Of a DNA stretch of 37,935 bases, positions 1 to 34,508 are shown piece after piece. The stretch is from an uncultured Saprospiraceae bacterium (GTDB lineage Bacteria > Bacteroidota > Bacteroidia > Chitinophagales > Saprospiraceae). The stretch's first letter is position 1. Every line of letters begins with the position of its first letter. The notes beneath the pieces were generated by a model, which was not told the origin of the DNA, made no database searches, and saw only the letters and a program-made list of their open reading frames with translations. The stretch is from assembly GCA_937973995.1 (NCBI GenBank), contig CALJIQ010000113.1, positions 1-37,935 of the forward strand, read 5' to 3'. A program made the position numbers and the translations under genes.

Positions 1-138
1 TATCGGCTGAAAACCAATATTTTACGAACCTGACTTTGAAAAAATTAGTTTACTTAGCTCGCTAAACGCACTAATTTTTTCTTCCTCAGAACCGCAAACT
101 ATTGATCTTCAACTCGAAATAAATTTTAGACATACTCT
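1..138 (+). repeat. Fold-back element family A, copy 1 (left end cut by window)
   Basis: This stretch matches 19739-19876 with about ten mismatches over 138 bases by eye. In the second copy the whole element is an imperfect palindrome with terminal inverted repeats. Here the left 18 bases are missing because the window starts. The centre forms a strong stem (AAAAATTAGT at about 46-55 against ACTAATTTTT at about 70-79). It ends 14 bases before the SusD start codon. No ORF lies inside it, so it looks like a non-autonomous MITE-like repeat. Confidence 0.85.
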
Positions 139-8846: not shown

Positions 8847-8874
8847 GCAGATATTCCGAATTTTATAAATAAGC

Positions 8875-8947
8875 AAAGGTTGTAAGCGGCATAAAAAAAG
8901 GCAAGTTTTTAAAAAACTTGCCTTTTTTTATGCCGCTTACAACCTTT
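8875..8947. terminator. Very long perfect hairpin, likely bidirectional terminator
   Basis: Arms 8875-8910 and 8912-8947 are exact reverse complements over 36 bases with a single-base centre. The core contains AAAAAAAGGCAAG and its complement CTTGCCTTTTTTT, which is the classic intrinsic terminator form in either direction. It lies 28 bases after the GumN/TraB stop codon. A perfect 36-bp stem is much longer than a terminator needs. Confidence 0.85.
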
Positions 8948-9104
8948 ACTGTGGGTCGTTCCTAACCAGTTTTGTAGGGGATAAAGATTTTTTTTGACGA
9001 ACGTATTCGCTTTTAAGTCGAAAGGAGGTAAATTGTCAATGAAAGATCAATAGTCTCTTTCTTTTTCTTCATGAACCATCCTGATACAAAATTTCTTAAA
9101 ATCA

Positions 9105-12760: not shown

Positions 12761-13096
12761 ATGAATGTACCAAACATCATAACCGCCATTTGCAGCCTCC
12801 TATTTTTTATGGTCGGAGCGGATAAATTTTTATCTTTTTTAGAACCCCCTTGTTCCTTAGAGAGTAGCATCTCCCCGATGGTTTGGATGGGATTAGGCGC
12901 TTTACAATTGGTTTCAGGTATCCTTTTATGGTTACCTAATTTTAGAAAGCCAGTGGCAGGGTTCTGGGCAGTTTTTATGGTAGTCTTCACAATCGTACAT
13001 CTCACGCAGAATACCTATGATGTGGGTGGTGCTGCGTCTATGGCATTGATGTTAGGCGTGTTAGCTTGGAATCCCAGTTTCTTAAGAGGTAAGTAG
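12761..13096 (+). CDS. Small DoxX-like integral membrane protein
   Basis: The 111-residue product has four hydrophobic segments (about 5-22, 41-58, 66-84, 88-104). The opening ITAICSLLFFMVGADKFLSF and the central LGALQLVSGILLWLP resemble the DoxX-like superfamily, whose members are small inner-membrane proteins of uncertain function. The final Lys codon and the TAG stop (13091-13096) lie inside the left end of repeat element B, so the repeat supplies the end of the gene. An original C-terminus may have been a little different. Confidence 0.75.
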   Translation: MNVPNIITAICSLLFFMVGADKFLSFLEPPCSLESSISPMVWMGLGALQLVSGILLWLPNFRKPVAGFWAVFMVVFTIVHLTQNTYDVGGAASMALMLGVLAWNPSFLRGK

Positions 13097-13230
13097 TCTG
13101 ACAAAAATAAGTTAACAACTTTGCTTGTCAGTTGATTGATTATTAATTACTGATTATTAGCTAATTAGGCGTGTTCAGTAGCGTCTGGAAAATAATTAAT
13201 AATCAATAATTAATAATGTCACACTACTTA
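13090..13230 (+). repeat. Palindromic element family B, copy 1
   Basis: This 141-base element is bounded by inverted TAAGTAGTCTGAC (left) and GTCACACTACTTA (right). It is almost identical to 34375-34508 over its whole length, differing mainly by a 7-base insertion near the right end. The interior holds TTAATTACTGATTATTAGC and matching inverted words. It has no ORF. A 3-base AGG lies on each side and could be a target duplication, but that is too short to be sure. Confidence 0.9.
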
Positions 13231-19445: not shown

Positions 19446-19590
19446 TATTTTTATTTTTAGTCCAAATAGAGTATATTCGAACCGACCTAGAAATTGAATA
19501 TCACTCCTATCACGAAACTGAACTTAGAGGTGGGGACAACTCAGGAAAAAATCTTTGATTTTATGGTTCTTTGACCATTTTTGCAATTTC

Positions 19591-19659
19591 CCCGTCGGAT
19601 GGCTATCGCCGTCGGATGGGAATATCCATCTCATCGGACGGCGGTAGCCATCCGACGAG
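19591..19659. repeat. GC-rich hairpin repeat (CGTCGGATGGC type)
   Basis: CGTCGGATGGCTATCGCCGT (from 19593) pairs with the right arm ending GTAGCCATCCGACG at 19657, with about four mismatches over 29 bases. The word CGTCGGATGG occurs twice in the left arm. The composition is sharply higher in GC than the AT-rich surroundings, which suggests a dispersed element. Confidence 0.75.
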
Positions 19660-19720
19660 TAGGTAAAAATAACTTTTGCAAAAATTTAATAAAGAACTGT
19701 TTTTATGTAAGACTAAACTA

Positions 19721-19876
19721 AGAGTATGTCTAAATTTCTATCGGCTGAAAATCAATATTTTATGAACCTGACTTTGAAAAAATGAGTTTGCTTAGCCCGC
19801 TAAACGCACTAATTTTTTCTTTGCCAGAACCACAAACTATTGATTTTCAACTCGAAATAAATTTTAGACATACTCT
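19721..19876 (+). repeat. Fold-back element family A, copy 2 (complete)
   Basis: This 156-base element has terminal inverted repeats AGAGTATGTCTAAATTT (19721-19737) and AAATTTTAGACATACTCT (19859-19876, one extra base). The palindrome continues inward (TGAAAATCAATA against TATTGATTTTCA) to a centre at TTAGCCCGCTAA, so the whole element can form one long imperfect hairpin. It ends 33 bases before the Crp-like gene start. Copy 1 at 1-138 is in the same orientation relative to its downstream gene. Confidence 0.9.
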
Positions 19877-19909
19877 AAACTCATCACTATCCAACGTGTT
19901 AATAAAACC

Positions 19910-20482
19910 ATGGAAGCGTTCAATAAATTCTTACAAAATTTTCCGCATTATCAACCTTCTGTATTTGAGGAAGTCCAGCCTTATATTTCAACCAAAGAAA
20001 TTGCTGCTGGAGATTATTTTTTAAGGGAAGGGCAAGTGTGTCAACATATTGGCTTTATTGAAAAAGGATTGTGTCGATTGTATTATTTGAATGACGGCAA
20101 AGAAGTGACCAATTGCTTTTGTAAAGAAAACACCATTACTTGTTCCTACCGAAGCCTCATTACCCAACAGCCAAGTGATGTTGCCATTCAAGCAATAGAA
20201 GATGTCACACTTTTGACCCTCTCCAACGAATCTCTTCAAGCCTTGTATAAAAAGAATCTATTTTGGCAACAAGTCGGAAGACTAGCTGGCGAAGCGGAAT
20301 ACATCAATGTGGATTGTCACAATCGCTTTTTGACGGATCTCACTGCTACAGAACGATACCTCCAAGTGTTAGAAGAGGAACCCGACTTGCTACAACGTGT
20401 CCCGCTCCAATATTTAGCCTCTTACCTGCAAATTGCTCCTGAAACCTTGAGTAGAATTCGCAAAAAAATTGCTCGAACTTGA
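19910..20482 (+). CDS. Crp/Fnr-family transcriptional regulator
   Basis: The 190-residue product has an N-terminal cyclic-nucleotide-binding-like beta-barrel (about 20-115, with AAGDYFLREGQVCQHIGFIE and GLCRLYYLNDGKEV). A short C-terminal helix-turn-helix follows (about 155-190, VPLQYLASYLQIAPETLSRI). The cAMP-contact residues of E. coli Crp are not present, so the ligand is unknown, as in most Bacteroidota members. The Cys residues do not make an Fnr iron-sulfur cluster pattern. It lies 298 bases before arsM on the same strand but a repeat element separates them, so control of arsM is only possible. Confidence 0.9.
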   Translation: MEAFNKFLQNFPHYQPSVFEEVQPYISTKEIAAGDYFLREGQVCQHIGFIEKGLCRLYYLNDGKEVTNCFCKENTITCSYRSLITQQPSDVAIQAIEDVTLLTLSNESLQALYKKNLFWQQVGRLAGEAEYINVDCHNRFLTDLTATERYLQVLEEEPDLLQRVPLQYLASYLQIAPETLSRIRKKIART

Positions 20483-20542
20483 TCTAGGTCAATTGATAAG
20501 TGGTTGATGTGGGGGATATTTGTGTTATTATTAATTTTTTAA

Positions 20543-20763
20543 ACCACATTAGGGCACATTAGTATTTTCACATTAGTTCACATAAGGCAAATTTGATTAA
20601 GCAAGTGGTAGGACATTATTAATTACTGATTATTAATTATTCTACAAACGTGATAAACACGCGTAATTAGCTAATAATCAATGATTAGTAATCAATAACA
20701 TTTGGACTTGAACTTCAATTCTATGTGCACTTATGTGAATCAACTAATGTGCCCTAATGTGGT
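20543..20763 (+). repeat. Fold-back element family C, long copy with family B-like core
   Basis: The ends are perfect 20-base inverted repeats, ACCACATTAGGGCACATTAG (20543-20562) and its complement at 20744-20763. A second inverted layer lies inside (TTCACATTAGTTCACATAAG against CTTATGTGAATCAACTAATG). The core (about 20611-20700) carries AATTACTGATTATTAATTAT and, inverted, TAGCTAATAATCAATGATTA, words that match family B in reverse. It therefore looks like a B-type sequence nested in a C element. The right end is 17 bases before the arsM start. Confidence 0.85.
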
Positions 20764-20780
20764 AAAATAAAACACAAAAA

Positions 20781-21885: not shown

Positions 21886-21953
21886 TTTTAGGAGGCAAAA
21901 AATTCAAAAATTGGCTTTTCAAAGCCAATTTTTGAATTTGTTGCCTCCTAAAA
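21886..21953. terminator. Long hairpin, terminator of the arsM operon
   Basis: Arms of 33 bases (21886-21918 and 21921-21953) pair with a single mismatch around a two-base loop. It lies 26 bases after the small Cys-Cys gene. The stem carries AAAAATTGGCTTT/AAAGCCAATTTTT, and A/T tracts beyond, and could stop transcription in both directions. Like the hairpin at 8875-8947 it is far longer than needed. Confidence 0.75.
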
Positions 21954-29827: not shown

Positions 29828-30178
29828 TTAAGTTATTAACTGCTTTCCCAAATAGCCTATAAGCGTACCAAATCCACCAACAATGCCGCCTATTAAGCTA
29901 GTTAACAAAACCATACTACCACTAGATAAGGCTCCAAATAGATTCCCCATTTTGGTAGATAAAAGGTGTCCGTTTTGAATATCTAAATATCCTGCATAAA
30001 TCCCCCACAATAAAGCCACTGCCACAAATCCCGTTAGATAACTCCAGAAACCATTAGTAGATTGTATCATAAAGCCTACGATGGCTGCTACTATTACAAC
30101 CGTCCACCATGGGAAATAGGATTGTAATAAAAATCCAATAAGGGTAATTAATAGAATACTTATCAAGAATTTTTTCAT
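29828..30178 (-). CDS. Small integral membrane protein, unknown
   Basis: The 116-residue product has four hydrophobic segments (about 4-20, 25-43, 46-65, 84-112), with a Gly-rich last helix (LIGGIVGGFGTLIGYLG). I do not recognise a family. It lies 181 bases upstream of the EAD11-TPR gene on the same strand, which may or may not mean co-transcription. A family C fold-back element ends 14 bases before its ATG, so its promoter must lie in or beyond that element. Confidence 0.65.
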   Translation of the reverse strand: MKKFLISILLITLIGFLLQSYFPWWTVVIVAAIVGFMIQSTNGFWSYLTGFVAVALLWGIYAGYLDIQNGHLLSTKMGNLFGALSSGSMVLLTSLIGGIVGGFGTLIGYLGKQLIT

Positions 30179-30192
30179 TTTTTGTTTTTGAA

Positions 30193-30292
30193 AACCACAT
30201 TAGTTCACATAAGTTGATTCACATTAGCACACAAAGTAGTACACGTAACTTTGTGAACTTATGTGAAAAAACTAATGTGAACTAATGTGGTT
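30193..30292. repeat. Fold-back element family C, short copy
   Basis: This 100-base element ends in inverted AACCACATTAGTTCACATAA (30193-30212) and TTAGTGAAC-type words reaching GAACTAATGTGGTT at 30292, with one mismatch over 23 bases. It shares its end sequence ACCACATTAG with 20543-20763. It fills the space between the membrane protein start (14 bases) and the penicillin acylase stop (10 bases). Confidence 0.85.
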
Positions 30293-34338: not shown

Positions 34339-34374
34339 TATTATCATAGATGATCTGTCAAGATTTTAATTATG

Positions 34375-34508
34375 TAAGTAGTCTGACAAAAATAAGTTAA
34401 CAACTTTGCTTTTCAGTTGATTGATTATTAATTACTGATTATTAGCTAATTAGGCGTGTTCAGTAGCGTCTGGAAAATAATCAATAATTAATAATGTCAC
34501 ACTACTTA
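34375..34508 (+). repeat. Palindromic element family B, copy 2
   Basis: This 134-base element has ends TAAGTAGTCTGAC and GTCACACTACTTA, and differs from 13090-13230 only by a 7-base deletion and one or two substitutions. Such close similarity points to recent spread. It separates the decayed frame at 34509-34706 from the terminator at 34304-34338. Confidence 0.9.

Follow-up and report, generated by a model that had tools for sequence, protein, structure and literature searches.

A family-wide MITE of Saprospiraceae with a conserved hairpin on one strand, probably mobilised in trans and probably specifying a rod-like RNA

The stretch of DNA analysed here (the window; 37,935 nucleotides, contig CALJIQ010000113.1 of an uncultured Saprospiraceae bacterium, assembly GCA_937973995.1) carries a 154-bp palindromic element that is multiplied in its own genome and recurs, with the same ends and almost the same length, in many other genera of the family. 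We read it as one copy of a trans-mobilised MITE superfamily whose minus strand probably specifies a conserved rod-like RNA, and give this reading a probability of roughly 0.65. An earlier note, made from the letters of this DNA, had singled out the palindrome as a fold-back element; it missed that the hairpin is conserved family-wide and on one strand only. Sequence comparison suggests that the folded strand, most likely as RNA, does something for the element or for its host. The element and its parts are located as follows.

19722..19875, minus strand (the strand predicted to fold as a conserved rod-like RNA): MITE, 154 bp; boundaries from the 3-bp duplications, supported by the model match and folding energies
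19719..19721, no strand: target-site duplication TAA, left copy; from sequence and flank comparison
19876..19878, no strand: target-site duplication TAA, right copy; from sequence and flank comparison
19722..19734, plus strand: left terminal inverted repeat GAGTATGTCTAAA, 13 bp, perfect; from sequence and flank comparison
19863..19875, minus strand: right terminal inverted repeat, reverse complement of the left one; from sequence and flank comparison
19765..19767, minus strand: first side of a 3x3 internal loop, AAC/AAC (read as GUU/GUU on the minus strand); unchanged in all 16 genus-alignment sequences, columns 45-47
19828..19830, minus strand: other side of the AAC/AAC internal loop; genus-alignment columns 108-110
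19792..19803, minus strand: apical stem-loop TTAG-CCCG-CTAA (UUAG-CGGG-CUAA on the minus strand); columns 76-87, stem with two-sided changes between genera
1..138, minus strand: second copy of the element, 93% identical, first 18 bp missing; right duplication TAA at 138-140

The 156-base palindrome described in the earlier note is present at 19721-19876, but its outer A and T are part of the TAA duplication and not of the element, since the flanks form a 3-bp duplication only if the mobile unit is read as GAG...CTC (19722-19875, 154 bp) with TAA on either side. The terminal inverted repeats had been put at 17 bp; they are perfect over 13 bp, and the 17 bp include one mismatch. Nor do the arms pair without a break through to the centre, as had been supposed: their interior is 75% complementary, and conserved internal loops interrupt the pairing. 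The covariance model described below matches 19721-19876 with 156.4 bits, and no ORF of at least 100 aa overlaps this interval. The second window copy lacks its first 18 bp because the contig start falls inside the element; several contigs of the assembly start or stop within it (137-139 bp), which explains why the window begins in a copy. The likeness of about 93% previously estimated by eye was recovered on alignment (93% identity between 1-141 and 19739-19879), as was the common orientation of both copies towards a plus-strand gene, assigned by Pfam to SusD_RagB (153-1721) and to a cNMP-binding, Crp-like regulator (19910-20482), respectively. A scan of 30 window proteins revealed no transposase, in keeping with the note's own observation.

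The genome-wide copy search that the note had proposed was run on the draft source genome (5.4 Mb, 562 contigs). From 146 first-look candidates, 40 places were scored (E <= 0.01), giving at least 40 copies, and 25 full copies are 88.5-99.4% identical. The 14-base end motif occurs 109 times (55 + 54), against 3 + 0 occurrences of the reversed control. A local duplication, which the note would have preferred had the genome held these two copies only, is ruled out by the 40 scored places. Comparison of flanks revealed a 3-bp duplication, TAA or TTA, in 22 of 27 full copies; identical duplications of either type border 34 of the 41 loci of the genus set and 65 of the 86 family-wide loci (99 of 127 together). 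The element is thus short, without a transposase gene, bounded by inverted ends and target duplications, and present as near-identical copies at unrelated sites. It is a MITE in all these defining properties, mobilisation in trans being the one that we infer. No clean orthologous empty site was obtained from the crp locus of G003 or from joined flanks: the former is without the element, and its upstream region is too diverged to reveal a precise empty site.

Some further observations concern insertion sites and ends. One copy (L024:1449-1604) sits within a AAATTCCAA-type palindromic repeat, and its flanks, when joined, give a 75% match to a further copy of this repeat, which amounts to a weak paralogous empty site. 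Solo end motifs, 13-18 bp of AGAGTATGTCTAAA, mostly beside a TA and with unrelated sequence behind, were seen at L060:2321, L061:1761, L063:2258, L064:3530, L066:2595, L074:607 and L075:157. They are commoner than chance predicts, and no convincing partner ends were found within 3 kb.

Diverged subfamilies, 155-156 bp long and with the ends and duplications of the window element, occur in related genomes. A covariance model built from 16 representatives and searched within Saprospiraceae (E <= 1e-5) detected the element in 58 of 298 genomes, mostly draft assemblies, and in 32 of 112 genera. All 86 loci examined from this search, one of which (L176) belongs to the source genus, are full length (154-157 bp). 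Plasmids and phages gave no DNA match to the element. Viral contigs yielded eight pattern hits and one confirmed relative, a 163-bp sequence with a TAA duplication and 47% GC (L286:5887-6049; IMG/VR contig 2744054599); it adjoins a phage-type integrase gene on a contig classed as viral. No report of such elements in Saprospiraceae was found in the literature searched.

The earlier note had called the element mobile or mobilised and had postulated a transposase acting in trans; both views gain from the copies and target duplications and from IS5-type IS with matching ends. IS5-family IS in Saprospiraceae encode DUF4096-DDE transposases and have GAG(C/T)ATGT(C/T)TAAA ends and TNA duplications. 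In G006, a genome of the same genus, a DUF4096 fragment of a broken IS directly adjoins the matching end ttaGAGTATGTTTAAAGATT, and relatives of this fragment are found in 34 of 398 family genomes. Full-length IS are flanked by TNA duplications, and their ends include GAGCATGTCTAAA, GAGTATGTCTAAAAATT and GAGTATGTTTTGA; the same kind of ends with TNA duplications was identified in L099, L108, L095, L101 and L109, and five IS end pairs with a TTA or TAA duplication delimit units of 866-886 bp with GAGC/TATGTCTAAA-type ends. The candidate mobiliser transposases belong to DUF4096 + DDE_Tnp_1 (PF13340 + PF01609; NCBIfam IS5, NF033580), and the combination of TNA duplication and GAG-type ends is one that we take to mark the IS1031 group of ISfinder. 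In G270, the rare end GAACGTGTTTAAAA bounds both a MITE copy (L180:1501-1655) and the sole full IS detected there (L260:1479-2395), on either side in each case. The REP-associated TnpA-REP considered in the note does not fit the 3-bp TNA duplications and the ends common to IS with DDE transposases.

No matching transposase was detected in the source genome with PF13586, PF13340, PF13359 or a four-sequence transposase profile; a PF01609 search returned a single transposase of 383 aa, which is unrelated and for which no matching ends were located. An IS5-type transposase match was present in only 12 of the 34 element-bearing genomes examined, many of these matches being fragments, and in most MITE-rich genomes such a transposase is absent or fragmentary. 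The mobiliser was therefore not caught in place, and mobilisation in trans by an IS5/IS1031-type transposase is a well-motivated inference from the matching IS in related genomes.

The element shares with IS5-family (IS1031-group) MITEs its short, non-coding sequence, inverted ends of about 13-16 bp, 3-bp TNA duplication and high copy number, as well as ends common to IS encoding DUF4096-DDE transposases. It differs in that its interior is not an IS remnant and in that length and fold persist in at least 32 genera; the usual description of MITEs is of derivatives restricted to a few taxa. A derivation of the hairpin from an IS interior was rejected: 28 IS/transposase loci showed no match except a weak 68-bp hit, and no full covariance-model match lay inside the IS loci. 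Depth of conservation and measured strand-specific covariation set the Saprospiraceae element apart from known MITEs.

The fold itself is a single imperfect hairpin. RNA folding, also proposed in the note, gave -47.1 kcal/mol for the plus strand of the palindrome; shuffled sequences lie at -18.9 +/- 3.4 (z = -8.2), and none of 200 equals it. In the genus alignment of 16 representatives, 23 pairs of this hairpin show two-sided changes and 89.6% of cells are paired; in a 40-sequence minus-strand alignment the figures are 34 of 51 pairs and 95.2% of cells, counts which lean towards the structure because alignment and structure were made from the same sequences. The covariation score is 0.499, compared with 0.200 +/- 0.008 for shuffles (0 of 500 as good) and at most 0.157 for slid partners. 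The internal loops are 3x3 and regularly spaced along the rod, and the AAC/AAC loop is unchanged in 16 of 16 genus sequences. Read on the minus strand, the plus-strand AAC/AAC and TTC/TTC loops are GUU/GUU and GAA/GAA; by analogy with known RNA motifs, these could form wobble and sheared pairs. In four foreign loci nothing reached the gathering score of an Rfam family, and the window gave only sub-threshold microRNA-like matches.

Which strand keeps the pairing can be read from mismatches, since an A-C cell turns into G-U when the opposite strand is read. In 40 representatives that are under 88% alike, plus-strand helices contain 107 A-C and 28 G-U cells; on the minus strand, 2035 helix cells comprise 1707 Watson-Crick pairs, 230 G-U and 16 A-C. 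The plus-strand fold with which the analysis had started was replaced by the minus-strand one after this count. A tree-based count, neutral between strands because it took in only positions with Watson-Crick pairing in the window copy, found 117 changes from Watson-Crick to G-U against 46 to A-C (p = 2.5e-8). The minus strand also folds better in 129 of 129 copies (mean -63.4 versus -45.0 kcal/mol; -67.6 versus -47.1 in the window copy), and in 38 of 39 with DNA energy parameters. Two features of a structured RNA, namely two-sided compensatory changes beyond controls and wobble tolerated on one strand, are in evidence.

A second inverted-repeat family, GGTTCTTTGAC...CGTCGGATGGC, forms a GC-rich hairpin directly upstream of the element (19561-19697) and has further copies in the source genome (C254) and in G002, G005, G007 and G008. 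Both its strands fold almost equally, with no strand asymmetry.

A palindrome may also be kept by mutation alone. Were this an ordinary IS-derived MITE, template switching between the arms (quasi-palindrome correction) would copy one arm onto the other, and such an appearance is given by the many changes that flip both sides of a pair, one-sided intermediates being few within the genus, and by end variants that are symmetric within single copies. Such copying makes two-sided changes, yet it is blind to strand, whereas G-U exceeds A-C 14-fold on one strand only; it would erase internal loops such as the invariant AAC/AAC, and it leaves the constant length over 32 genera unexplained. As it accounts for neither the strand asymmetry nor the kept loops, arm copying is not enough, and we regard it as quite improbable as the whole explanation. 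Strand asymmetry and conserved extra-helical positions are equally natural for a single-stranded DNA hairpin that is read as DNA during movement, like attC or the ends of IS200/IS605, and a DNA substrate would need no bias in gene orientation. The TAA/TTA duplications and the ends common to DDE IS point instead to double-stranded transposition; to our knowledge, IS200/IS605 and integron insertions make no such duplications. G-U pairs, moreover, make up 11% of minus-strand pair cells, a level typical of RNA families. Given that DNA parameters favour the minus strand too, the single-stranded DNA hairpin retains some probability; we consider it unlikely, and RNA the more likely form of the minus-strand fold.

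The host might, on the other hand, have adopted the RNA as a regulatory element, be it a terminator, an RNase III site or a hairpin for mRNA stability, that transposition distributed and that was retained for the usefulness of insertions near genes. The copies are indeed intergenic and close to genes, and Correia and bcr elements are reported to be active in UTRs (PMC10969869, PMC3446304). The orientation of neighbouring genes contradicts a 3'-UTR or terminator role: the folded strand is sense no more often than antisense, the gene on its 5' side being co-directional in 40 cases and opposite in 64, the 3' side even, and both neighbours being co-directional in 19 cases against both opposite in 32. 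Position is not kept at the one orthologous locus compared, where the region upstream of crp in G003 is without the element. No enrichment of TTTG/TTG at a fixed distance was found in the flanks, as a promoter on the folded strand might have left. Adoption by the host therefore appears highly improbable as the reason for the conservation. The preferred reading remains that of a mobile element specifying an RNA from its minus strand.

Among known repeats of similar kind, bcr1 is about 155 bp long with a predicted conserved fold, and Correia elements have TA as their target duplication. The bcr1-bcr3 repeats of the Bacillus cereus group are MITE-like and intergenic, and bcr1 is reported to be transcribed and often to lie in UTRs (PMC3446304); a title cited in the same paper describes bcr1 as specific to the B. 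cereus group. They resemble the Saprospiraceae element as MITE-like intergenic repeats and differ in belonging to an unrelated phylum; the present element extends through a whole family, and its covariation and strand asymmetry were measured. A review of prokaryotic MITEs that yield stable transcripts (PMC10969869) includes the Correia elements of Neisseria, mobile intergenic inverted repeats some 100-200 bp long that give folded transcripts cleaved by RNase III, and MITEs of Coxiella from which small RNAs have arisen. Correia elements are likewise mobile, intergenic and inverted-repeat, but have other ends and another duplication, with no family or transposase in common with the window element. 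REP and REPIN sequences, too, are intergenic palindromes in many copies; members of the present family, unlike these or IS200/IS605-like elements, measure 154-157 bp and have 3-bp TNA duplications. REP/REPIN depend on RAYT/TnpA-REP enzymes, which make no target duplication. REPs are 20-40 bp long (PMC3733652).

Under the preferred reading, an IS5/IS1031-type transposase would recognise the 13-bp ends, cut the element out and insert it in trans into TAA or TTA, duplicating these 3 bp. The interior is one imperfect hairpin of near-fixed length (154-157 bp), unlike an ordinary deletion derivative, and in one orientation, minus in the window, it would specify a rod-like RNA with G-U pairs and 3x3 loops, the fold being maintained by compensatory changes over at least 32 Saprospiraceae genera. 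As the fold is kept in all genera without consistent placement relative to genes, selection would most likely act on source copies, which the fold may help to multiply or to be tolerated, in a trans-acting or self-propagating role. A more ambitious and rather doubtful version would make this an ancient DNA transposable element that needs the structured RNA it specifies in order to spread. The RNA would act in trans together with an IS5-type transposase or the host; conservation would then fall on the fold rather than on the sequence, and the ends would follow whichever IS is available.

In the usual view, MITEs are decaying IS relics without lasting sequence constraint. This lineage has kept its length and strand-specific fold over about 30 genera while the letters of the stem turned over, the pattern expected of a functional RNA. 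Confirmation would tie small transposable elements to RNA function in bacteria, add a structured-RNA family absent from Rfam, and make it testable whether bacterial repeat hairpins are by-products or working parts.

The window contains several other repeats. An AT-rich family is represented at two intergenic sites (13076-13230 and 34361-34508, 93% identical) and by a partial reverse-complement copy at 20603-20696. Intergenic hairpins of ACATTAG/CTAATGT type, 76-87% alike or complementary, occur at 20528-20582, 20721-20779 and 30178-30292. Two near-perfect intergenic hairpins, at 8872-8950 and 21886-21953, have arms of 39 and 33 nt, respectively, that are 97% complementary, and are possibly terminators.
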